Assembly (NCBI GenBank): GCA_026988575.1
Contig: JALSKZ010000036.1
Location: 1-57,607 of the forward strand
Direction of reading: 5' to 3'
Source: Thermodesulfobacteriales bacterium
Lineage (GTDB): Bacteria > Desulfobacterota > Thermodesulfobacteria > Thermodesulfobacteriales > Thermodesulfatatoraceae
DNA: 57,607 bases
Shown here: piece after piece, positions 7,090-42,024 of the stretch
Numbering within the stretch: position 1 is the first letter of the stretch
How the letters are laid out: each line of letters starts with the position of its first letter
The notes under the pieces: generated by a model
Databases searched by the model: none
What the model was told of the DNA's origin: nothing
What the model saw: only the letters and a program-made list of their open reading frames with translations
Position numbers and translations under genes: made by a program

Positions 7090-8483
7090 AATCTTTGGCC
7101 TATAACGAGGCCACCATAGCAGCTATTGCTACCCCTGTGGGCCCTGGGGCCATAGGGGTAATTAAAGTGAGCGGTAGGGACGCAGAGGCCATTTTGCGGC
7201 GTATTTTTCGGCCGCGGCGAAGGAATTTAAAAGAATTTCAGAGCCATCGCCTTTATTATGGGCATATTATAGACCCTGAAACCCAAACCGTTATAGACGA
7301 AGTGTTGGTAACCCTTATGCGTGCCCCCCACACTTATACCCGTGAAGACGTCTTGGAGATATATGCCCACAGTGGCTATTTGATCCTGACCAAGATTTTA
7401 GAGCTGGTGTTACGTTCAGGAGCTCGTTTGGCCGAGCCTGGCGAATTTACCCGGCGCGCTTTTTTAAATGGTCGCCTTGATCTTTCGCAGGCCGAGGCCG
7501 TACAAGAGCTTATCACCGCCCGTTCTGAACAAGGCCTTCGTTTGGCCCTTAACCAACTACAGGGTGGGCTTTCGCAAAGGCTCCATAAAATAAGAGACCA
7601 CCTCCTTTCGGCCCTGGCCGTGGTGGAAGTGGCCGTGGACTTTCCCGAAGAAGATGTCGAAGTGCTTTCTTCCCAGGAATTGGCCCGAAAGCTAGAAGAA
7701 CAGGTCTATCTCCCGATTAAGAAGCTTTTAGAAGACTATCGTGAGGGGCGCCTTTTCCGGGAGGGGATGGCGGTGGTCATTGCCGGACGGCCCAATGTGG
7801 GTAAATCCAGCCTCCTTAACGCCTTGTTAAAAGAAGAACGGGCCATTGTCACCCCGATACCAGGGACCACCCGGGACATAATCGAAGAGGTAGCTACTAT
7901 TAGGGGGCTTCCCGTACGTCTCATTGATACTGCCGGTCTTCGGGAAACCGCTGATGTGGTAGAAGGTATAGGAGTTAAGAAGGCCAAGGAAAAGATTCAA
8001 CAGGCCGATATAGTCCTTTTTATGGTAGACGGGAGTAAACCGCCCTGCCCAGAAGATCTTTTGCTCTACCAGGAGGTAGCTTCACGTACGCATTTGGTGG
8101 TGATCAACAAAATAGATATATCCTCAAAAGAATCGCTGACCCAATGGGAAAGAGAGTTTCCCAACGCGCGAAAAGTTTTTATCTCGGCCAAGGAACACAA
8201 AGGTCTTTCTGAATTATACGATGCCGTCTTTGAATTAGTTATTGGACAAAAAGAGGTCTCGGTACCGGAAATTGTCCCTAATTTACGTCAAAAAATAGCC
8301 CTAGAGAGGGCCTTAGAGGCCCTTGATCGTGCCCTAAAGGCCCTTGAGGCCCCGGAAGTCTACCCTGAATTGATAGCCGTAGATTTGCGAGAGGCCTTAG
8401 CCTCTTTAGGCGAAATTACTGGTGAAGTAACTACCGAAGACCTCCTAGACCGTATCTTCAGTCAATTTTGTCTTGGCAAATAA
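7086..8483 (+). CDS. mnmE: tRNA uridine-5-carboxymethylaminomethyl(34) synthesis GTPase MnmE
   Basis: MnmE acts with MnmG to modify the wobble uridine of certain tRNAs. The N-terminal tetrahydrofolate-binding domain (1-120) is followed by a helical domain split by a G domain. The P-loop is GRPNVGKSSLLNALL near residue 235, then G2 IPGTTRD, G3 DTAGL and G4 NKID. The C-terminal catalytic CLGK (CxGK motif) ends the protein, so it is full length. It is the last gene of the operon; only two bases separate its stop from that of the convergent AIM24-family gene. Confidence 0.97.
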   Translation: MKSLAYNEATIAAIATPVGPGAIGVIKVSGRDAEAILRRIFRPRRRNLKEFQSHRLYYGHIIDPETQTVIDEVLVTLMRAPHTYTREDVLEIYAHSGYLILTKILELVLRSGARLAEPGEFTRRAFLNGRLDLSQAEAVQELITARSEQGLRLALNQLQGGLSQRLHKIRDHLLSALAVVEVAVDFPEEDVEVLSSQELARKLEEQVYLPIKKLLEDYREGRLFREGMAVVIAGRPNVGKSSLLNALLKEERAIVTPIPGTTRDIIEEVATIRGLPVRLIDTAGLRETADVVEGIGVKKAKEKIQQADIVLFMVDGSKPPCPEDLLLYQEVASRTHLVVINKIDISSKESLTQWEREFPNARKVFISAKEHKGLSELYDAVFELVIGQKEVSVPEIVPNLRQKIALERALEALDRALKALEAPEVYPELIAVDLREALASLGEITGEVTTEDLLDRIFSQFCLGK

Positions 8484-8485
8484 GG

Positions 8486-9289
8486 CTATTCTTCCTCGTC
8501 GCCAAGGATACTTCCTAGTACAGCGCCAAGGCCTGCGGCAGCCCCTATACCGCCCAATTTGTCTGCGGGGTTGGTGCTTTCTTCATGGCCTCCCGGGGCC
8601 TGGAGTTGCCTGCGGAGTTTGGCCAGCGTCATAGTCTGTACTACTACAGTGCCTGGCCCGGTGAGGGTAGTCAGGAATAACCCTTCACCACCGAAGATAG
8701 CGGTTTTGATACCGCTTACCAGGCGAATATCATAGGTTACCCCCTCGTCCCAGGCCACAACACAACCCGTGTCCACCTGAATACTTTCTCCTGCCTCTAA
8801 TTCGAAGGTGACCAAATCTCCTCCTGCATGGATAAATACTACTCCGTCCCCGGAGAGCTTTTCCACCACCAGACCTTCTCCCCCAAATAGGGCCCCTCCC
8901 AGGCGTTTCTGAAGGGCTATGGAGATATCTATTTCGCCAATAGCGGCTAGGAAGGCGTCTTTTTGGGCCAAAATAGCCTCGTTGGAAAGGCCTATAGGGA
9001 GTATTCTCCCAGGAAAATCTCCCGCAAAGCCCACTTCCCCTTGCCCTTCAAAGAAGGTCAAAAAGAGCGATTCACCAGCCAATATGCGTTTGCCAGCCGA
9101 GAGTAATTTGTCAAAAAAACCCTTTTCTTTATTGTTGGTCAGGCGGGTTTCCATTTTTACCGCGCCGCGCATATAGATCATCTTGCCGGCTTCGGCAAAT
9201 ATTGGGTGCCGACCCACGCCCACTTTAAGCATTTCTAGGTTGTCCCCTACGATTTCGTAGGCCCTGGTCTGCCGCTCTAGTATCCTCAT
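8486..9289 (-). CDS. AIM24/TIGR00266 family protein
   Basis: This is a beta-rich protein of 267 residues with the AIM24 (TIGR00266) pattern: a repeated glycine-rich FGGEGL motif (twice), GESLFLTFFEGQGEVGFAG, and VDTGCVVAWDEGVTYDI in the middle. The C-terminal tail is Gly/Ala-rich and ends in acidic residues, and no signal peptide is seen. The biochemical function of bacterial members is not known. AAGGAGACC precedes the ATG. It lies 9 bases after dapB, but a role in lysine synthesis is not implied. Confidence 0.85.
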   Translation of the reverse strand: MRILERQTRAYEIVGDNLEMLKVGVGRHPIFAEAGKMIYMRGAVKMETRLTNNKEKGFFDKLLSAGKRILAGESLFLTFFEGQGEVGFAGDFPGRILPIGLSNEAILAQKDAFLAAIGEIDISIALQKRLGGALFGGEGLVVEKLSGDGVVFIHAGGDLVTFELEAGESIQVDTGCVVAWDEGVTYDIRLVSGIKTAIFGGEGLFLTTLTGPGTVVVQTMTLAKLRRQLQAPGGHEESTNPADKLGGIGAAAGLGAVLGSILGDEEE

Positions 9290-28847: not shown

Positions 28848-30056
28848 TTAACCGTATATTCGTATGACGTTTTTGGGGGCCATACAAACTAGCTGTTCGT
28901 AGGGATCGACCTTGGGGGCAGCTACCGGCACCGCCAATATTTCGGCCTTGGCTTTAGGGACAAGGTGTCCCATCTGGGGTCTCTTCAGGGCTTCTGCTCC
29001 CCACAAGGTGGCCATTTTCACGAGGATTTGCGGGGCAATTTGGGGGAAAAACCGGTGCAAGGTCTCCATTTCCGCAAAGATAGAGAGCTTGTCGTTGCTG
29101 GCCAGGCTGTCTGTGCCTATACAGGGTTTGAGGCCCAGGTCCAGCATTTTGTCTAAGGGAGGAAGTCCTACGCCCAAATAAGTATTGCTGCGGGGGCAAA
29201 GACATGGACGGGCCTGAGCTTCGGCCAATGTCTCTAAATCGTTTTGGGAGACATGGACTGTGTGGACACAAATGGTATCGCGATCAAGCACCCCAAGGTG
29301 TTTTAAATAGCCTATCGGGCTCAATCGGGGGACCCTAAATCGGGGGTTCCATTGTTTACGTTCTTCGAGTAAGAGACGTAAAGGGCCTTTGCCCTCCTGC
29401 AAGAAGACAACCTCTTCGGGAGACTCAGCTACGTGTATGGAAAAGGGCAGATGGTAGCGCTTGGTCCAGATCTTTATAGCTTGCAAGAGTAGGGGAGAAA
29501 CAGTGTAGGGGGCATGTGGGGCTAGACTAAAGAGGAGTTTTGTGGAGGAGTGTTGGTGTTGTAAAAAATCTTTTAGGGAGCTAGTGCCTTTAAAATCGAT
29601 TATTTCTCTAAAAAAAACGGCCTGCATAGGGCCATCGTGTAAGATACCTATGGTGATACCGGTGTTTCCTACTTCTCCCACCAGGCCAATCCCTTCTTTC
29701 CACATGTCTTGCAAGGCCTTATAAGCGGCCTTTTGGGTCTGCTCTACAGAGACTTCGCTACGTTGACGGATAAGACTACGGACCCAGTTTACAAAGGAAC
29801 CAGAGGGGATAAGGCGCCACTTCAAGGCAGATAATTCCAGATGGGTATGTACATTGACTAGGGCCGGCAAGACAATTACTTCCCCCAGGTCGTAACGCCG
29901 GCCAGAAAAGACCTTTTTTAATTCACGCCAACGTCCTACACGTATTACCTCACCTTGGGCCAGAATGATGCCGCCGTCTTCGATTAAGGGCTCCTTTAAA
30001 GGGAGTATAAACTTAGCGCGGTAAAGAGTTGGTTCCCGAAAGGATATTACCTGCAC
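28848..30056 (-). CDS. Amidohydrolase, likely aminodeoxyfutalosine deaminase (MqnX-like)
   Basis: This is a metal-dependent amidohydrolase of 402 residues. Ligands are visible in VNVHTHLELS (HxH), IHVAESPEEV, VHTVHVSQND and GTDSLASNDK. SNTYLGVGLPPLD is typical of the SsnA/MqnX branch. Its GTG start shares one base with the mqnC stop, so it is translationally coupled to a gene of the futalosine menaquinone pathway; this supports deamination of aminodeoxyfutalosine. The substrate is inferred from context. Confidence 0.8.
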   Translation of the reverse strand: MQVISFREPTLYRAKFILPLKEPLIEDGGIILAQGEVIRVGRWRELKKVFSGRRYDLGEVIVLPALVNVHTHLELSALKWRLIPSGSFVNWVRSLIRQRSEVSVEQTQKAAYKALQDMWKEGIGLVGEVGNTGITIGILHDGPMQAVFFREIIDFKGTSSLKDFLQHQHSSTKLLFSLAPHAPYTVSPLLLQAIKIWTKRYHLPFSIHVAESPEEVVFLQEGKGPLRLLLEERKQWNPRFRVPRLSPIGYLKHLGVLDRDTICVHTVHVSQNDLETLAEAQARPCLCPRSNTYLGVGLPPLDKMLDLGLKPCIGTDSLASNDKLSIFAEMETLHRFFPQIAPQILVKMATLWGAEALKRPQMGHLVPKAKAEILAVPVAAPKVDPYEQLVCMAPKNVIRIYG

Positions 30057-31126
30057 TATTGGTCCTCAAGGAGCGTATAGTCCATCTTGCGGCGTCGGGG
30101 TACATAGCCGGCGTCGCGAATAATGGTTTCAATTTGTTCTATAGAGAGTCGATGGGCTACCCCGGCTGCCGCCACCACATTTTCTTCGATCATAGTACTG
30201 CCGAAATCGTTGGCTCCAAACTCCAAGGCCACTTGGGCCACTTTAGGTCCCTGGGTGACCCAAGAGGCCTGGATATTGGGAATATTGTCCAGGTAGATGC
30301 GCGCTAAGGCCACCATTTTGAGATATTCTACCGGTAAGGCCTTAGGGGTACAGAGGGCGGTATTTTTTCCTGGTTGAAAGGGCCAACTAATAAAGGCCGT
30401 GAATCCACCGGTTTCATCTTGGAGAGCTCGAATACGGTTGAGGTGTTCAATACGGTCTTCTATGGTCTCAATGTGGCCGTACATCATGGTGGCGGTAGTT
30501 TTTAACCCTAGCTGGTGGGCTACACGCATCACTTCTAGCCAATCTTTGGTTTTGCATTTGTTAGGAGATATTTTTTGACGAATCCGGTCTACCAATATTT
30601 CGGCCCCACCTCCAGGGATAGAATCTAAGCCCGCCTGCCTTAAGCGTTTTAATACCTGCTTTATCTCTAACCCCGAAAGCCGGGCGAAATGGTTGATCTC
30701 CGGGGGGGAAAAACCATGGACGTGGATCTGGGGAAAACGGTTTTTTATGTAACTTAGCATATCTTCGTAGAATTCTAGGGGTAAGTCGGGGTGCAAGCCC
30801 CCTTGCAATAGGATCTGTACCCCACCAAGGGCCAAGGTCTCTTCTATCTTTTGGGCCAGTTCTTCTTTGGAGAGCACAAAACCTTCGGGATGCCCAGGGG
30901 GTTTATAGTAGGCGCAAAATTTACAGCCCGAAAGACAGATATTGGTATAGTTTATGTTCCGATCAACAATATAAGTTACTATACGCTCGGGGTGAATCCG
31001 AAACCGTATTTCACGCGCCAGGGCCCCTAGGGTAAAGAAGTCGGCCTTGTTCCACAAGACAAGGGCTTCTTCGGGATTAATACGTTGGCTTGCTCTGATC
31101 TTAGAAATAATTTCGTTAAGCTCCAT
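30056..31126 (-). CDS. mqnC: Cyclic dehypoxanthinyl futalosine synthase (radical SAM)
   Basis: MqnC is a radical SAM enzyme that cyclises dehypoxanthinylfutalosine in the alternative menaquinone pathway. The cluster motif is CLSGCKFCAYY (CxxxCxxC), preceded by DRNINYTNI and followed by GHPEGFVLSKEEL, as in MqnC. GGLHPDLPLEFYEDML and GGGAEILVDRIRQ are also diagnostic. Length is 356 residues. MqnE, the paralogue, has a different spacing here. Menaquinone would link periplasmic electron transport to the Hdr and cytochrome systems. Confidence 0.92.
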   Translation of the reverse strand: MELNEIISKIRASQRINPEEALVLWNKADFFTLGALAREIRFRIHPERIVTYIVDRNINYTNICLSGCKFCAYYKPPGHPEGFVLSKEELAQKIEETLALGGVQILLQGGLHPDLPLEFYEDMLSYIKNRFPQIHVHGFSPPEINHFARLSGLEIKQVLKRLRQAGLDSIPGGGAEILVDRIRQKISPNKCKTKDWLEVMRVAHQLGLKTTATMMYGHIETIEDRIEHLNRIRALQDETGGFTAFISWPFQPGKNTALCTPKALPVEYLKMVALARIYLDNIPNIQASWVTQGPKVAQVALEFGANDFGSTMIEENVVAAAGVAHRLSIEQIETIIRDAGYVPRRRKMDYTLLEDQ

Positions 31127-34214: not shown

Positions 34215-36539
34215 ATGAAGAGGAGACGTTATGGCAATGTTTTAGACCGTATAGGTCGTACTCCCTTAGTGCCTGTTCGGCGTATTTCTACTAACCCCAA
34301 GGTAAAGATATACGCCAAGATAGAGAGTGTTAATCCTGGGGGCTCTATCAAAGATCGTATAGCCCTTTCTATGATAGAAGCAGCCGAGGAAAGTGGGGAA
34401 CTAGATCATAAAAAGACCGTGATTGAGGCTTCAAGCGGTAACACTGGTATAGGTTTGGCCTTGGTGTCGGCGGTAAAAGGTTACCGTTGTCTTATAGCTA
34501 TGAGCGAATCGGCCTCTTTGGAGCGACGCAAGATCATGCGCGCCTTTGGTGCAGAACTGTTACTTACCCCCGCAGAGAAGGGTACCGACGGGGCCATCGA
34601 AGCGGTTTATGAATTGGCGCGAAAATATCCGGAAAAATACTATTTGACCGATCAATTCAACAACCCGGCCAATTGGCAGGCCCATTACTATGGTACAGCT
34701 CCGGAGATTTGGAAAGACACGCAAAAAAAAGTGACCCATGTGGTGGCAGGCATGGGCACTACCGGCACTTTAATGGGGCTGGCCCGCTATTTTCGAGAAA
34801 ATACCCCTGTTCAAGTTATTGGCGTGGAGCCTTACCCTGGCCATCGCTTGCAGGGCTTAAAGAACCTCAAAGAATCTTATCCTCCGGGGATATTCGATAA
34901 AAGACTGCCTCACCGTATAATTCATGTAGAAGACGAAGAGGCCTGGGAACTTACCCGCCGTTTGGCGCGTGAAGAGGGCCTTTTTGTGGGTATGAGTTCT
35001 GGGGCTGCTTTGGCCGGTGCCCTTAAAATAGCCAAAGAGCTCACGGAAGGCTTTATAGTAGTAATTTTCCCCGACGGGGGGGAACGGTATCTCTCTACAA
35101 ATTTGTGGTCTTTTGAAGAAAAAGAGCCCACGGGGATCCGTTTTACCAATACCCTTATCCGGCGTAAGGAGCCTTTTTGCCCCTTACAACCGAAAAAGGT
35201 AGGTATATACACTTGTGGACCTACGGTACACAGGAGGCCTCACCTTGGTCTTTATAGGCGCATGGTTACGGCTGATCTACTGCGTCGCTTTTTAGAATAC
35301 AAGGGTTTTGAAGTCACCCACATTGTAAATATCACGGATTTTGACGATAAGACCATTCAGTCTGCCGAAGAGGAAGGTCTGGATTTGGCCGCTCTTACCG
35401 ATAAATATTCCCAGGCCTTTTTTGAAGACCTTCAAAAATTGAGGATTTTACCGGCTACCGTTTTCCCTCGAGCCAGAGAGCACGTGGAAGACATGATTGC
35501 CCTGGCTCGTATACTCTTGCAAAAGGGCTTTGCGTATGAGAAACACAGCTCCGTATATTTTGATGTGTCTAAACTTTCCGACTACGGTACCTTGGCCAAA
35601 ATAGACCTTTCGAAATTAAAGGCCGGCGTCACCGTAGACTTAGAAGAATATGAAAAGGACAGCCCCTTGGACTTTACCCTATTTAAACGCACCACCCTTT
35701 ACGAGCTCAAAAAGGGGCTTTTTGTAGAGACAGAATGGGGAAAAGTTCGGCCTGGTTGGCACATCCAATGTGCAGCCATGGCCATGAAGTATTTAGGGGA
35801 GACCTTTGATATTCATACAAGCGGGACAGATTTGATCTTTCCCCATCATGAAGACGAACGGGCCATCGCCAAAGCCGTTACGGGAAAAGATTTTTGCCGC
35901 TATTGGTTGCATACGGCCTTGGTCCTGGTAGAAGGTAAAAAGATGTCCCACACCGCAGGCAACGCTATTACCATCCCCGAAATCTTGGCCAGGGGCTATT
36001 CTGGCCGTGAGATCAGGTATTTTTTGTTGCGTACCCACTATAGAAAACCCCTTAATTTTTCTTGGTCAGCCCTGGAGGCGGCACGGCGCTCCCTGGCCAA
36101 TTTAGATCTCTTTTGGGCCCTTTTGGTTCGCGAACCTAGTAGCAAGAAAGAAGCGGGCCTTGTTCCAGCCTTAGAGAAGATGCTTCGTGACTTTGAGGAG
36201 GCTTTGGAGGACGATCTTAATGTATCTGCGGCCCTGGCAGCCCTCTTCGAATTTATACGCAAGGCCTATCCCCTGTTGGCCCAGAAGGGGCTTTGTGCCT
36301 CTGAAGTACAGAAGCTAAACGATGTGTTCCAAAAGATAGATACCGTGTTGTGTATAATACCCAGGGTACAGGTGGTAAGGGACGAAGAGATAGATAAGAT
36401 CCTCAAACAACGGGAGGAGGCCCGCGCGGCAGGAGACTTTGCTACCGCTGATAATTTGCGGGAAAAGCTACAAAGAAAGGGATTAAAAGTAATTGATACT
36501 CCTCGGGGCACGGTGGTTTGTTGTCTAAAAGATGAATAG
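34215..36539 (+). CDS. Cysteine synthase fused to cysteinyl-tRNA synthetase
   Basis: This 774-residue protein joins two complete enzymes. Residues 1-300 are a PLP-dependent cysteine synthase (CysK/CysM): K46 in NPGGSIKDRIAL, SSGNTGIGLALV, VAGMGTTGTLMG and MSSGAALAGAL. Residues 312-774 are a cysteinyl-tRNA synthetase from its normal N-terminus (FTNTLIRRKEPF) to the C-terminal helical domain (REEARAAGDFATADNLREKL, then TPRGT). The zinc ligands look kept: YTCGPTV, HIQCAAMA, FPHHEDE. The class I signatures are unusual: HLGL at 343-346 in place of HIGH-type, and KMSHT at 576-580 in place of KMSKS. A GAAGGGGAA site precedes the ATG. It may make cysteine and charge tRNA-Cys in one protein, or be a specialised paralogue. 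Confidence 0.92.
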   Translation: MKRRRYGNVLDRIGRTPLVPVRRISTNPKVKIYAKIESVNPGGSIKDRIALSMIEAAEESGELDHKKTVIEASSGNTGIGLALVSAVKGYRCLIAMSESASLERRKIMRAFGAELLLTPAEKGTDGAIEAVYELARKYPEKYYLTDQFNNPANWQAHYYGTAPEIWKDTQKKVTHVVAGMGTTGTLMGLARYFRENTPVQVIGVEPYPGHRLQGLKNLKESYPPGIFDKRLPHRIIHVEDEEAWELTRRLAREEGLFVGMSSGAALAGALKIAKELTEGFIVVIFPDGGERYLSTNLWSFEEKEPTGIRFTNTLIRRKEPFCPLQPKKVGIYTCGPTVHRRPHLGLYRRMVTADLLRRFLEYKGFEVTHIVNITDFDDKTIQSAEEEGLDLAALTDKYSQAFFEDLQKLRILPATVFPRAREHVEDMIALARILLQKGFAYEKHSSVYFDVSKLSDYGTLAKIDLSKLKAGVTVDLEEYEKDSPLDFTLFKRTTLYELKKGLFVETEWGKVRPGWHIQCAAMAMKYLGETFDIHTSGTDLIFPHHEDERAIAKAVTGKDFCRYWLHTALVLVEGKKMSHTAGNAITIPEILARGYSGREIRYFLLRTHYRKPLNFSWSALEAARRSLANLDLFWALLVREPSSKKEAGLVPALEKMLRDFEEALEDDLNVSAALAALFEFIRKAYPLLAQKGLCASEVQKLNDVFQKIDTVLCIIPRVQVVRDEEIDKILKQREEARAAGDFATADNLREKLQRKGLKVIDTPRGTVVCCLKDE

Positions 36540-37857
36540 CCTCTGTGTGACCATCGAAAAACTAGTTTATGGGGGAGATGGCCTGGCCCGCTTACCTGAT
36601 GGACAGATAGCTTTTGTACCCCAAGTCCTCCCTGGTGAACAAGTACGCATTCAGATAGTCCAAAAGTTTGGAGATTATGTATGGGCCAGGCCGGTGGAGA
36701 TCCTCTCTCCAGCGCAAAAACGGCAGGAGCCCCCCTGTAGTTATTATCCAGCCTGTGGGGGGTGTCAGTGGCAACACATTGCCTATCCGGCTCAACTAGA
36801 GTTTAAATTACAAATATTTAAAGAGACCCTTTCTCGCTTAGCTGGTCTGGGGACAGTACCTATTGAAGGTGTTCATCCTTCTCCAAGACCATTAGGCTAT
36901 AGGCATCGGCTACAGTTTCATGTACACAGTGCTACTGGTGCCTTGGGTTTTTTAAAGCGCCGTTCCCACGATTTGGTCCCTTTACGTTCTTGTGCCTTAG
37001 CCACTCCGGAAATAAACCAGGTGATGTCTGTATTGCCCGACTTACCGGCATGGAAACGCCTGCATCCCTATGTAAAACGTCTAAACTTAGGGACCTCTCT
37101 AGCCGAGGGCTTGGTTACCATGCTTTTGTGGATCAAAGTAGAACCGCGCAAAGAGGATCTGTGGGAGATCTTTGAGGCCCTACCTGTATTGAAGGCTATC
37201 TTTTACTGGGTAAGGGGCCGTTTCCCTATAGGGCCCATTCCCGAAGAGGCCCCAGACAACGGTGTGCGTTTGTTTCCGGTCCCCCCTAATATAAGTGGCC
37301 AGAAAGAGGAGGTTTTTTTCCAGGCGGCTCCAGGCGTGTTTGTACAGAATAATTGGGAAATAAATCTTTCGCTTATTGAGTACGTACGTAAGATAGCAGG
37401 CCTTAGTCCAGGAGAAGAAGTCTTAGACCTGCACTGTGGTATGGGTAATTTCCTGTTGCCTTTGAGCCTTTTAGCGCGAGGGGGTAAAGGGGTGGACACT
37501 GATCCACGGGCCATAAAAGATGCGCGGGCTAATGTTGAGCGGTGGGGCCTTGAGGGCAAGCAGGTGCATTTTGAAGTATTTTCGGCCATGGAAGCCCTTT
37601 TGGAGTGTCTCAAACTGGGGGAAGTCTACCCACTGGTCTTACTTGACCCGCCTAGAGGGGGTTGTAAAGAACTGTTGCGCTTTTTGCCTGATATCGCCAT
37701 AGATCGTCTGCTTTACGTGTCTTGCGACCCCCCAGCCCTGGCCCGCGATCTAAAAATCCTTATAAAGCAAGGGTTTTGCGTAGAATGTATTAAGGTGTTT
37801 GACATGTTTCCCCAAACTTATCATTCAGAAAGCGTTGTCCTCCTTAGAAGGGCTTAA
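36532..37857 (+). CDS. rlmD: 23S rRNA (uracil-C5)-methyltransferase, RlmD/RumA family
   Basis: This 441-residue protein begins with a TRAM domain (about 1-60). The iron-sulfur cysteines follow in PPCSYYPACGGCQWQHI. The methyltransferase domain has the SAM loop VLDLHCGMGNFLLPL, LLDPPRGGCKELL and the catalytic cysteine in LYVSCDPPALARDL, then the HSES segment with the conserved Glu. Its ATG overlaps the end of the fusion gene by 8 bases. The family covers RlmC, RlmD and TrmA; RlmD is preferred because of the TRAM and Fe-S parts, but the exact uridine is not shown. The 3' end overlaps the convergent cytochrome gene by 4 bases. Confidence 0.88.
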   Translation: MNSLCVTIEKLVYGGDGLARLPDGQIAFVPQVLPGEQVRIQIVQKFGDYVWARPVEILSPAQKRQEPPCSYYPACGGCQWQHIAYPAQLEFKLQIFKETLSRLAGLGTVPIEGVHPSPRPLGYRHRLQFHVHSATGALGFLKRRSHDLVPLRSCALATPEINQVMSVLPDLPAWKRLHPYVKRLNLGTSLAEGLVTMLLWIKVEPRKEDLWEIFEALPVLKAIFYWVRGRFPIGPIPEEAPDNGVRLFPVPPNISGQKEEVFFQAAPGVFVQNNWEINLSLIEYVRKIAGLSPGEEVLDLHCGMGNFLLPLSLLARGGKGVDTDPRAIKDARANVERWGLEGKQVHFEVFSAMEALLECLKLGEVYPLVLLDPPRGGCKELLRFLPDIAIDRLLYVSCDPPALARDLKILIKQGFCVECIKVFDMFPQTYHSESVVLLRRA

Positions 37858-38969
37858 TAAGGGTGACATTTTCTACATACATGCCCCCCATATACGTCTC
37901 CGATAAGGAGAAACCTGTATTTTGAACCATGGGGGTTGTGACAGCTGGTACACCCGAATTTCCTTCCTTTGCGTATAGGATCTTTGGGTCCTATAAGAGG
38001 ATGGGTCTTTAAGGGGTGGCCGCGTTTTAGGCCCTGTAATTTAAGGTGACACCTGGTACACCATAGGTTAATCGGCCCCTGGTGTAGCTGATAACGGTAA
38101 TCTGAAGCATGAGGGTCATGGCAAGCTGTACACCCTAAACCCACTAAAATGCCGTGTACATGGATTTGGGGAGACCTCTGCAGATAGACGGCCTTGTCTC
38201 GGTGACAACTGGTGCAGATCTGCCCGTGGGCACTGGCTGTGAGTTCAAAGGGGTAGGGTCCTGCGTGGGGGTTGTGACAAGCCGTACAGTCTCCAGTAGC
38301 CACAGGGCCGTGAACGTGTTTCTTGCGGTAAAAATGCTTGGCGTTTACGTGACACTGAGTGCAGAGATCTAAGGGTTTGCCGGCAAAAATGCGTATATGC
38401 CCCCTTTCTTCATGACAGAACCGACATAACCAGTTGGCCGCGGGGGGATGCTTACTATACCCCTTGGGAAAAAGTCTTTGGTGGCAAGAAATACACTGCG
38501 GATCAAACGGGCCATATAATACAGGGTTTATTTTGACCCCTTTAGGTATACGATCGGTATGACATTTGGCACAAGGTTGAGGGTTTACTTTATAGCGGTG
38601 GAAGAAAAAGACAGAGGAGTCATTGGTATTGAGGAGAAGCAAACTCTGTAGGACCTTATATTTTATAGTAAATTCTTTATCGTAAGGTTTTATAACAATA
38701 TTATTTTCTCCGGGGTTGAGGCGCAATAAAAAGTGTGGGTAATATGTGCCGAAAAACTCCCATATGCCTTTAGGTGATATTTCTCCCTCTGAAGTTTTTA
38801 GACGTATTTGAGAAGCTTTTTTGTCTTTAGTGCTTAATACTACGGTGATAATTCTTCGACGGGCCAAAATAGTAGAGCCTGGAGTAGGCACTAATATTCG
38901 AATATTGTCAGCATAAGCTAACGTTCCCCATATCCAGAAGATAATAATTGCTAATGATATCTTTTTCAC
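37854..38969 (-). CDS. Exported decahaem cytochrome c (doubled CXXCH type)
   Basis: This 371-residue protein has a signal peptide (residues 1-20, cleavage near AYA-DN). A beta-rich N-terminal domain of about 110 residues without haem sites follows. Ten CxxCH motifs come next: CAKCH, CISCH, CRFCH, CTQCH, CTACH, CTSCH, CTACH, CTRCH, CTSCH and CRKCH. Several are followed by NPH or DPH, the doubled-CXXCH pattern of periplasmic or extracellular electron carriers. It lies 9 bases after the TlpA/TPR gene on the same strand, and shares the layout of the 16-haem protein at 40288. It probably moves electrons across or outside the periplasm; the partner is unknown. Confidence 0.9.
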   Translation of the reverse strand: MKKISLAIIIFWIWGTLAYADNIRILVPTPGSTILARRRIITVVLSTKDKKASQIRLKTSEGEISPKGIWEFFGTYYPHFLLRLNPGENNIVIKPYDKEFTIKYKVLQSLLLLNTNDSSVFFFHRYKVNPQPCAKCHTDRIPKGVKINPVLYGPFDPQCISCHQRLFPKGYSKHPPAANWLCRFCHEERGHIRIFAGKPLDLCTQCHVNAKHFYRKKHVHGPVATGDCTACHNPHAGPYPFELTASAHGQICTSCHRDKAVYLQRSPQIHVHGILVGLGCTACHDPHASDYRYQLHQGPINLWCTRCHLKLQGLKRGHPLKTHPLIGPKDPIRKGRKFGCTSCHNPHGSKYRFLLIGDVYGGHVCRKCHPY

Positions 38970-38978
38970 TTTTCTCCT

Positions 38979-39992
38979 CTATAAAGGGTTATTTTTTAGT
39001 AATTTATAGGCTTTTTTGTATTCTTGTAGTGCCTGTGTATATCTTTTTTCTTGTTCGTATAGTTCTCCTAGAGCAAAATGTATTTCTGGGTTTTGGTTGT
39101 TATGTAATAGTAATTCTTTTAATCTATTTATAGCTTGTTTTGTGTCTCCTTGTTTTGCAATTGCCCTGGCCAAACATATTTCTCCTTTTAGAGATTTTAT
39201 ATGTTTTAGACTAATTTTGAGTTCATGTATAGCTTGTTTGATGTTTCCTTCTTGTAGATAAATACATCCTATAGCTATATGGGCTTTATATAGTAATGGG
39301 TTTAGTTCAAGGGCTTTTTGGAATTCTTTTATTGCTTCTTTGGGCATTCTTCTTTTAAGCATAATTTTTCCCATATTAAAATAACGATCAGCCATTTTTT
39401 CTTTAGTGGTTTTTTGTTTTATTTTTGAGTTTTTGGTATCTTTTTTTATACTATGCTTCTCTCCCATAATTGTTTGTATTTTTTCTTTTATTTTTTTTAT
39501 TAAATAATGACTATATGCTTCGCCTTCTACTATTTTGCCCTGTTTATCAATTATTAAAACTGATGGCATGACAAATATACCCAGAGCTTTATAAGCTTCT
39601 TTATGTCTATCTACATAGATAGGATAGTTTGTTTTTGAGGATTTAACTACTTCTTCTATTGTTTTAAGGTCATCATTTTGTACATTTATGCTTATAAAGC
39701 GTACTGCTCTTTTCTTTAAAAACGGCTCTGTTTTACGAAATTCCTGAAGTATTTTAATAGTTCTTTCTTTTTTGATAGGGAGATCAGCTCCCCAGAAAAA
39801 CAAAATACTTAATTTGCCTCTTAGGTTTTCACTACACAATTTTTCTTGGGTTGTTAGAGGATAGACACAGAAATGGGGGAGAGGAAGCCCCTTCTTTACG
39901 TTACGGAAAGGAAAGGCCCCTTGGGTCTGACGCGCACATAAAAATAAGAAACTCATTATAATAAAAAGCATTAAATTTTTAGGGCTAAACAT
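38979..39992 (-). CDS. TlpA-like thioredoxin-fold protein with TPR repeats, redox cysteines missing
   Basis: This 337-residue protein begins with a hydrophobic signal (about 7-25). Residues 35-175 have a TlpA/AhpC-type fold: LRGKLSILFFWGADLP, KTNYPIYVDRHKEAYKALGIF and MPSVLIIDKQGKIVEG with the cis-proline. Where TlpA has WCxxC, this protein has WGADLP, so it cannot be a standard thiol oxidoreductase. Three or more TPR units follow (about 200-335), e.g. MPKEAIKEFQKALELNP and KRYTQALQEYKKAYKLL. The gene is very AT-rich (30% G+C in one sampled line), unlike most neighbours. It may be a scaffold or haem-handling factor for the flanking cytochromes. Confidence 0.85.
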   Translation of the reverse strand: MFSPKNLMLFIIMSFLFLCARQTQGAFPFRNVKKGLPLPHFCVYPLTTQEKLCSENLRGKLSILFFWGADLPIKKERTIKILQEFRKTEPFLKKRAVRFISINVQNDDLKTIEEVVKSSKTNYPIYVDRHKEAYKALGIFVMPSVLIIDKQGKIVEGEAYSHYLIKKIKEKIQTIMGEKHSIKKDTKNSKIKQKTTKEKMADRYFNMGKIMLKRRMPKEAIKEFQKALELNPLLYKAHIAIGCIYLQEGNIKQAIHELKISLKHIKSLKGEICLARAIAKQGDTKQAINRLKELLLHNNQNPEIHFALGELYEQEKRYTQALQEYKKAYKLLKNNPL

Positions 39993-40097
39993 TTCTATGC
40001 CTCTCCTTTTTTAACCGTCAATTTTAGCACGATTTTTTTTAGATGTTCAACAATTATGAGCTTAGAAGTTCGTCCTTTTGCTAAGAAAATGAAAATT

Positions 40098-40145
40098 GAT
40101 GATATTTGAACATCTTCATGGCCAAGAAATGGAGCAATCTAGTCT
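40098..40145. repeat. Degenerate dispersed repeat, copy B
   Basis: Positions 40098-40112 are identical over 15 bases to 117-131. A GAAATGGAGCAATCT segment (40126-40140) and CTCGTTATG (40145-40153) follow in the same order as in copy A. Both copies lie in non-coding DNA, and decay differs between them. Confidence 0.4.
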
Positions 40146-40233
40146 CGTTATGCGGGCAGTTTTGTCCTTTCCTTGCGCTAGTGAAAAAATTTATTTGTAG
40201 AAATTTGTGAATTAATCAACTTAGGTATTTTTT

Positions 40234-40263
40234 TTGGAAAATCTTTTGATTTTAGGTTAATAT
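40234..40263 (+). promoter_or_regulatory. Possible promoter of the 16-haem cytochrome gene
   Basis: TTGGAA (40234-40239) is followed after 18 bases by TAATAT (40258-40263), which would give a short leader before the AGGAGGTG site. The region is AT-rich, so chance matches are likely. Confidence 0.35.
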
Positions 40264-40287
40264 TTCTATATGGGCAGGAGGTGTTTT

Positions 40288-42024
40288 ATGCTTAAAGAAC
40301 ATAAAATAATGCCTTTTTTGGGGATAATAATTTTTCTGTTCTTTTTGAATTTATCTTCTCCTGTATTGGCAGCGGTTAAGATAAAAATTGTTTCTCCTCC
40401 TAATAAGGTGTGGGTTGAGGAGAAGAATATTTTTTTAGCAGGGCGTATTGAAGGAAATTTGGTAAATAAATACCACAAAGTTAGCATTAAAGGTGTAAGA
40501 ATTGTTTCGCCCAAAGATAGAAAAGTCTTGGTCAAATATGGGGCTTTTGGGGCCATTATACAACTACGTGATGGTCTGAACAAGATTAAGCTAAATATTG
40601 ATGGCACTCAGGCCCAAATAGAAGTTTTTTATCTATCATCTAAAGCCCAACAAAGGGGAAAGACGCCTCCTAAAGGCTTTAGACACTATTATGTACATCC
40701 GTCTCCTCAATTATTATCTTGCCGACAATGTCATTTTTTTAGCCAGGACACCTTTGTTTTTGAGCGTCGATTACCTACTCCGGCCAACTGTACTACGGGT
40801 AACTGCCATTCAAATATGGGCAAAGCCCCCTATGTACACGGGCCAGTAGGGGCCAAGGTGTGTATAGCCTGTCACAATCCCCATGGATCTTTTGAAGAAT
40901 TAGAATTGCAAAAGACGGGTCCGCTACTTTGTTTTTCTTGTCATCAAGAGAAAAAGAGTGAATTTTCTAAAGAAGTGGTCCACGCGCCCGTGGAAGAAAG
41001 TTGTATTGATTGTCATGACCCTCATCAATCTTCCATGCGCTTTCAGCTAAAGGCCGAAGGTAATAACGTTAGTAATCTTTGCTTTAATTGTCACGATAAA
41101 GAAGTGTTTACAAAAAAATATGCACATGGTCCAGTGGCTTTGGGTGACTGTATAGCGTGTCATTATCCCCATGCTTCTGACTATAATGCTTTATTGGTAG
41201 CACCTGAAGAAAAAGGTAAGTTATGTTTTCAGTGCCATCAGGATAAACAAGAAGAATTTCAGATGAAATATAAACATGAACCAGCTATAGAAGATTGTAA
41301 TTTATGTCATAATCCTCATAGTTCCAATACACGCTATCAATTGGTAAAACCCCAGGGCAAACTATGTAAATCTTGTCATGGTGAATTAAATCCAGAAGTT
41401 TACCAGGCAATCCAAGACAAGTATCCCCATAAACCTGTTAAAGACAACCACTGTACTGCTTGTCATCGCCCACATGCTTCCAATTATGAGTTGCTGTTGA
41501 AAAATGATACCAAAGATTTATGCTTTTCCTGTCACCAGGAATTAGGAAGTTATATCAGAGCAGCTAAATATAAACACGGGCCTGTTCAGACAGGTGATTG
41601 TGTTGCTTGTCATAATGTCCATGGTTCTAAATATGTTTCCTTATTAATAAAATATTTCCCTCCCAAATTTTATATGGATTATAAGCCGGAAAACTATGAT
41701 TTATGTTTTAGCTGTCATAATAAAGATATAGCCCGCACTCAATTTACGGATATACTTACTAATTTCCGAGATGGGGAATTAAATCTACATTACAAGCATG
41801 TACATCGCAAAAAGGGTCGTAGCTGTATAGCCTGTCATGATCCTCACGCCAGCAATCAACCCAAACACATTCGTTATGAAGTTCCTTTTGGCATGTGGGC
41901 CTATCCCATTAGGTTTACCAAGACCCCTACGGGAGGGTCATGTGTGGTGGGGTGTCATGCCCCCAAAAAATACGATCGTGTACATCCCGTCTTTTGGAGA
42001 TCGGGGGCAAGACCAACCAAGTAA
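40288..42024 (+). CDS. Exported 16-haem cytochrome c (doubled CXXCH type)
   Basis: This 578-residue protein has a signal peptide (cleavage near VLA-AV) and a haem-free beta-rich domain of about 110 residues (IVSPPNKVWVEEKNIFLAG). The rest is a tandem array of doubled CXXCH units of about 40-45 residues. I count 14 CxxCH motifs plus two unusual ones, CTTGNCH (CX4CH) and CVVGCH (CX3CH). Most are followed by NPH, DPH or YPH and separated by KHGPV or similar, so histidine ligands are plentiful. AGGAGGTG at 40276 selects the ATG at 40288 over 40270. It is probably an extracytoplasmic electron carrier. Confidence 0.9.
   Translation: MLKEHKIMPFLGIIIFLFFLNLSSPVLAAVKIKIVSPPNKVWVEEKNIFLAGRIEGNLVNKYHKVSIKGVRIVSPKDRKVLVKYGAFGAIIQLRDGLNKIKLNIDGTQAQIEVFYLSSKAQQRGKTPPKGFRHYYVHPSPQLLSCRQCHFFSQDTFVFERRLPTPANCTTGNCHSNMGKAPYVHGPVGAKVCIACHNPHGSFEELELQKTGPLLCFSCHQEKKSEFSKEVVHAPVEESCIDCHDPHQSSMRFQLKAEGNNVSNLCFNCHDKEVFTKKYAHGPVALGDCIACHYPHASDYNALLVAPEEKGKLCFQCHQDKQEEFQMKYKHEPAIEDCNLCHNPHSSNTRYQLVKPQGKLCKSCHGELNPEVYQAIQDKYPHKPVKDNHCTACHRPHASNYELLLKNDTKDLCFSCHQELGSYIRAAKYKHGPVQTGDCVACHNVHGSKYVSLLIKYFPPKFYMDYKPENYDLCFSCHNKDIARTQFTDILTNFRDGELNLHYKHVHRKKGRSCIACHDPHASNQPKHIRYEVPFGMWAYPIRFTKTPTGGSCVVGCHAPKKYDRVHPVFWRSGARPTK

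Follow-up and report, generated by a model that had tools for sequence, protein, structure and literature searches.

A single gene that joins a cysteine synthase to a cysteinyl-tRNA synthetase (CysRS) raises the question of why the enzyme that makes an amino acid should be tied to one that charges the same amino acid onto tRNA. Such a gene was found at 34215..36539 on the forward strand of the window, the whole 57,607-nucleotide stretch of DNA from a Thermodesulfobacteriales bacterium that was analysed here. According to the original prediction, a complete CysK/M-type enzyme runs directly into a complete CysRS over a linker of about a dozen residues, and sulfide could be channelled through cysteine to Cys-tRNA. 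The open reading frame starts with ATG, contains no internal stop and comprises 774 codons. Profile matches along the encoded protein of 774 aa identified a CysM-type cysteine synthase followed by a CysRS-like domain.

The cysteine synthase half, a fold-type II PLP enzyme of the CysM/OASS type, is encoded at 34236..35108 (+; residues 8-298). Pfam PALP matched residues 10-287 with 260 bits, and NCBIfam cysKM (TIGR01136) matched residues 11-298 with 364 bits, exceeding the cut-off of 344. The NCBIfam cysM profile (TIGR01138) gave 366 bits, slightly below its cut-off of 394, and CysM is the type to which the synthase half is closest. The PLP lysine K46 (34350-34352, +) lies in GGSIKDR, and the SSGNTG (residues 73-78), GTTGT and QGLKN loops are all present on the same strand. 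K46, the SSGNTG loop, S74-G80 and G181-T185 were invariant in 47 homologues.

The CysRS-like catalytic domain is encoded at 35136..36134 (+; residues 308-640), where Pfam tRNA-synt_1e matched residues 322-624 with 316 bits. It is followed by a DALR_2 domain (36192..36350, +; residues 660-712; Pfam PF09190) and a CysS_C anticodon-binding domain (36381..36500, +; residues 723-762; PF23493), both above cut-off. NCBIfam cysS (TIGR00435) scored 413 bits at residues 310-768, exceeding the cut-off of 340, and the zinc ligands C334, C519, H544 and E548 are all kept. The HIGH motif, which reads HLGH or HIGH in the separate CysRS aligned with it, is degenerate HLGL (35241..35252, +; residues 343-346) and is followed by a fusion-specific invariant residue, R349. 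The KMSKS motif is likewise degenerate and reads KMSHT (35940..35954, +; residues 576-580). A fusion-specific conserved block with D475, Y479, R492, K499 and G501 (35637..35717, +; residues 475-501) is absent from canonical CysRS. The CysRS-like half is full length and has all of its domains, yet HIGH and KMSKS are altered. The original prediction was right about two complete folds in one frame, and its 'complete CysRS' needs this one qualification.

An AlphaFold model of the window protein had a mean pLDDT of 89.3 and a pTM of 0.62, with both halves well folded. In structure comparison, the N-terminal half matched the CysM structures 2bhs and 3dki, the latter from M. tuberculosis, with Z scores of 42.6 and 41.8 and identities over the structural alignment of 44% and 38%, respectively. 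The C-terminal half matched the CysRS structures 8qhp and 1u0b, the latter an E. coli CysRS-tRNA complex, with Z scores of 51.5 and 50.8, respectively. Confidence broke at residues 292-305 (pLDDT <50), in agreement with the predicted linker of about a dozen residues. The linker, encoded at 35088..35135 (+; residues 292-307), is predicted to be disordered and differs in length between homologues. Because the linker is disordered and the pTM modest, the relative placement of the two domains is uncertain and the model is no reliable guide to a channel.

An assembly error joining two genes, the main doubt attached to the original prediction, was ruled out as the source of the fusion, because the same full-length, one-frame join recurs in nearly all of 40 relatives, finished single-contig genomes included (G003, G010-G014 and G018). 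Matches spanning both halves were also found in at least 150 of 395 genomes sampled evenly across Desulfobacterota. A few of these genes were truncated, either at a contig end or through a frameshift, and about six further genomes, whose best E-values ranged from 1e-142 to 1e-182, may have the fusion too. Among the matches listed from a genome collection were Desulforapulum autotrophicum, Desulfoluna butyratoxydans, a Candidatus Desulfobulbus, an uncultured Desulfocapsa and a Caldimicrobium sp. In the phylum of a Nitrospirota record, none of 246 genomes gave a fusion-strength match, this set being one without an internal positive control.

Several other candidates proved not to be fusions. An Acetoanaerobium record matched the two halves as separate pieces only, at a site without annotation. 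Loci from Desulfofundulus and Latescibacterota turned out to be adjacent OASS genes, and CysRS matches on a Klebsiella plasmid were unfused. On that plasmid (L095, 935-4641), cysS stands beside folE2, dksA and the genes for a GTP-binding protein and a transcriptional repressor, and the cluster resembles one for zinc limitation that includes a spare CysRS. In a Nitrospiraceae genome (L110, 4013-6176), an unfused CysM has the same QGLKNM loop, is 54% identical to the fused synthase half and sits directly before an apparent cysteine desulfurase gene. A relationship of this CysM to the N-terminal half of the fusion is possible.

Across 35 fusion loci, the fusion and its antisense frame were the only conserved features. 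An operon-based function was rejected because neighbours are not conserved, and no conserved neighbour points to a ligand. RlmD lies downstream at a few loci. In the window, the gene for RlmD (23S rRNA U1939 methyltransferase; 36532-37857, +) overlaps the fusion gene by its last 8 bases, stop codon included, and because of this overlap the two are probably co-translated; the pairing was seen only in a few relatives. Elsewhere in the window, genes of the futalosine menaquinone pathway are located at 28848-31126 (-), where MqnC scored 519 bits, above its cut-off, and an adjoining aminofutalosine-deaminase-like hydrolase scored 180 bits, well below the cut-off of 320. Multihaem c-type cytochromes with doubled CXXCH domains are encoded on both strands at 37854-42024, and one of them resembles DmsE/GSU2203 decahaem proteins.

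Whether the fusion serves as the CysRS of its host depends on what else the genome encodes. A search with canonical CysRS found a separate CysRS besides the fusion in 77 of 80 fusion-bearing genomes. The three genomes without one are all drafts, namely the source genome of the window (G000), G063 (430 contigs) and G250 (82% complete). The separate cysS of G002, G003 and G018 has CvpA and mazG downstream. In the source genome, a mazG fragment begins at base 1 of contig C74 and the expected CvpA/cysS stretch lies off the contig. The fbp gene precedes cysS in G002 and G018, and other genes come after fbp in the source genome (contig C18). The missing separate CysRS of the source genome is probably an assembly gap, because mazG is cut at the first base of its contig. 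The draft indeed showed no other cysS, but it would be unsafe to take the fusion as the only CysRS of this genome, since the syntenic site coincides with the end of a contig. On present sequence grounds, the CysRS paralogue of the fusion is not the housekeeping CysRS.

For a comparison of motifs, 47 fused proteins were aligned with 12 separate CysRS belonging to the same order. Each of the 12 separate copies had HxGH, either KMSKS or KMAKS, and a C-C-H-E zinc set. Neither HxGH nor KMSKS was present in any of the 47 fused proteins, and KMSRS was present in 14. The zinc set was intact in 30 fused proteins and partly or wholly lost in 17, with both zinc cysteines gone in 5. HLGN, KMSRS and the full zinc set (CCHE) were retained together in just two. 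Some fused members fell below the TIGR00435 cut-off, for example with 279 and 177 bits. In the ML tree, a single clade (five loci, support 100/100) had lost HIGH, KMSKS and the zinc cysteines altogether, and the fusion is still kept in it. Partial losses were dispersed over other branches of this tree, which is unrooted and weak at its deep forks; motif decay therefore occurred more than once. Conservation of the anticodon domain remains good in the clade without catalytic motifs. In a model of a member without these motifs, which was built on an alignment including less decayed members and is not fully independent, the CysRS fold persists (8qhp, Z 46.4, 27% identity). In E. coli CysRS, the changes K266A and K269A are tolerated when assayed by translation (PMC5660078), so an altered KMSKS alone is no proof of inactivity. 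Judging by the four zinc ligands of the window protein and the two members with HLGN, KMSRS and CCHE, some members may still charge tRNA.

The source genome was also searched for the means of making cysteine. SerA was present (703 bits), and O-phosphoserine is therefore likely made. No cysE was found above background (best 26 bits, partial), no second cysteine synthase (cysK/cysM/OASS) was detected, and the transsulfuration family PF01053 had no member above its cut-off. Close relatives, including the finished genome G003, are likewise without cysE. In the phylum sample, cysE was missing from 76 of 150 fusion genomes versus 50 of 245 others (Fisher p 6e-10, uncorrected for shared ancestry), and it was present in the other half of the fusion genomes. 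Since cysE is missing in half of the fusion genomes, the fused synthase must often work without CysE-made O-acetylserine, and gene content suggests that the synthase half probably works without CysE. O-phosphoserine is its likely substrate. This is the simplest candidate, since it serves the CysM of M. tuberculosis (title of 3dki; a reference in PMC9855970). CysM of C. jejuni does not use O-phosphoserine (PMC9855970), so family resemblance alone is not decisive on the substrate. K216 in the QGLKN loop was invariant in the 47 homologues, which for O-phosphoserine use is suggestive at most.

We give an even chance to the reading that the protein is a working CysM-type synthase, probably using O-phosphoserine and sulfide, fused to a diverged CysRS paralogue that is kept as a control or sensor domain. 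The comparisons of genes and genomes that bear on this reading are the fusion and its wide spread, the separate CysRS in most genomes, the repeated loss of motifs, the invariant synthase site, purifying selection on both halves and the absence of cysE in half of the genomes. By analogy with HisZ, a sensing and regulatory role is proposed for the CysRS-like half. It would most likely sense one or both of two ligands: cysteine, in versions that retain the zinc site, and tRNA-Cys, bound by the anticodon domain, which is kept throughout. Such sensing would adjust the attached synthase, as HisZ does for HisG. The chief difficulty lies with members that have lost the zinc cysteines: they cannot detect cysteine in the same way, which points toward tRNA or a structural role as the shared one.

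The strongest rival, which we regard as unlikely, is that the CysRS half is a slowly decaying passenger that merely stabilises or oligomerises the synthase. In pairs with unsaturated dS, dN/dS was 0.06-0.16 for the CysRS half versus 0.02-0.10 for the synthase half; the CysRS half is faster-evolving, as expected of a passenger, yet it is under purifying selection, with values well below 1. The repeated loss of motifs fits decay, and in the finished genome G054 (L076, ~8027-8560) a frameshift lies inside the CysRS half, the remaining domain running on in another frame. However, the half is full length in about 150 genomes, and R349, D475, Y479, R492 and G501 were invariant in the 47 fused sequences and absent from separate CysRS.

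A related reading, which we hold to be quite unlikely, makes the CysRS-like half a sensor or scaffold for tRNA-Cys. Uncharged or misacylated tRNA-Cys bound through the anticodon domain would switch on the CysE-independent synthase, or would supply a tRNA-bound substrate. If this were true, cysteine synthesis would be directly controlled by the state of its own tRNA.

The channelling of the original prediction, in which a bifunctional enzyme would pass the cysteine that it has made to its own CysRS half for conversion to Cys-tRNA, now appears very unlikely as the reason for the fusion. The two complete folds, the zinc ligands and anticodon domain of the window protein, the lack of another CysRS in the draft source genome and the two homologues with near-canonical motifs are all consistent with it. 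Nearly every fusion genome nevertheless has a separate CysRS, and the copy belonging to the source genome is probably in a contig gap. HxGH and KMSKS are missing from every fused protein examined, the clade without catalytic motifs and zinc cysteines still retains the fusion, and the linker is predicted to be disordered, with domain placement uncertain. The accompanying suggestion that a CysRS joined to a PLP enzyme might make cysteine persulfide was weakened as well. In E. coli CysRS, the lysines of both KIIK and KMSK are needed for PLP-dependent persulfide synthesis (PMC5660078). The window protein has KTIQ (379-382) and KMSH (576-579) at these sites and keeps one lysine of each PLP-binding pair; the last lysine of KMSK was found in none of the 47 fused proteins.

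It is highly improbable that the protein carries out a tRNA-dependent step, with the CysRS half holding Ser- or phosphoserine-tRNA-Cys for conversion to Cys-tRNA by the PLP half, or with tRNA-Cys as an obligate cofactor. An anticodon domain that is well kept while catalytic motifs decay would suit such a step, as would the half of the fusion genomes that lack CysE, and conversion of tRNA-bound phosphoserine to cysteine exists in the SepRS/SepCysS system (PMC5424206). Against it, the synthase half belongs to the usual CysM type, which acts on free amino acids, rather than to SepCysS, and almost all fusion genomes have their separate CysRS. An MshC-like ATP-dependent cysteine ligase, fed by the attached synthase and joining cysteine to a small amine to give a low-molecular-weight thiol, is highly doubtful, for although MshC, itself a CysRS paralogue (PMC2922099), has a closely matching fold (Z 45.0), the mycothiol_MshC profile gave 204 bits versus a cut-off of 485, the DALR and anticodon domains are kept, the ATP motifs are gone in several lineages and there are no consistent gene companions.

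At least 150 members of the family were counted in a single sample of Desulfobacterota, a phylum in which sulfate reducers abound. Databases probably misname the fused proteins, because many exceed the annotation cut-off for 'cysteine--tRNA ligase'. If the regulatory role is real, another amino-acid pathway would be governed by a synthetase-derived domain, in this case built into the enzyme. Because present-day genomes preserve several stages of catalytic decay, the passage from synthetase to control domain can be tested directly. The fusion also provides a candidate CysE-independent route to cysteine in the bacteria that bear it. No paper describing a CysM-CysRS fusion was found in the literature searched, subscription papers excepted, and the possibility that the fusion had already been widely described did not materialise in those texts. 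A 2022 review of synthetase paralogues lists CysRS* and MshC alone for CysRS (PMC9437257). What is new here is a synthetase paralogue serving amino-acid biosynthesis in fused form and for cysteine; the kind itself is known.

Compared with canonical bacterial CysRS (TIGR00435), the C-terminal half has the same domain order and fold, and the window protein is above the cut-off, but HIGH and KMSKS are altered in all fused members examined and a separate copy coexists. Compared with CysM and O-phosphoserine sulfhydrylase (2bhs, 3dki), the N-terminal half has all of the catalytic residues, and the difference is the CysRS-like extension. CysRS* of Desulfobacterales is a noncanonical CysRS from related bacteria (PMC9437257), but it has no anticodon domain, its tRNA is SelC*, and descriptions of it mention no fusion to a cysteine synthase. 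Fusion genomes also showed a third CysRS-like gene (G396:C1:2100627-2101781 and G170:C61:164356-165357), whose length of about 425 aa would leave no room for the anticodon domain; it is possibly CysRS* charging SelC*. MshC shares CysRS ancestry and a close fold with the fusion, whereas MshC has no tRNA step, an active ATP site and no fusion partner, and the profile score of the fusion is far below the cut-off. SepRS/SepCysS also couples cysteine synthesis to tRNA-Cys, but through an unrelated SepRS and another PLP family acting on a tRNA-bound substrate. HisZ is a HisRS paralogue that regulates HisG without adenylation activity (PMC9437257), and like the CysRS-like half it is a synthetase paralogue without aminoacylation duty that is tied to a biosynthetic enzyme of the same amino acid. 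The fused half is derived from a synthetase, does not maintain the synthetase motifs and has a housekeeping copy elsewhere, as for HisZ; regulation is the part of the comparison that stands by analogy. HisZ is a class II, separate subunit acting at the first pathway step, whereas the fusion carries a class I CysRS paralogue, covalently attached, at the last.
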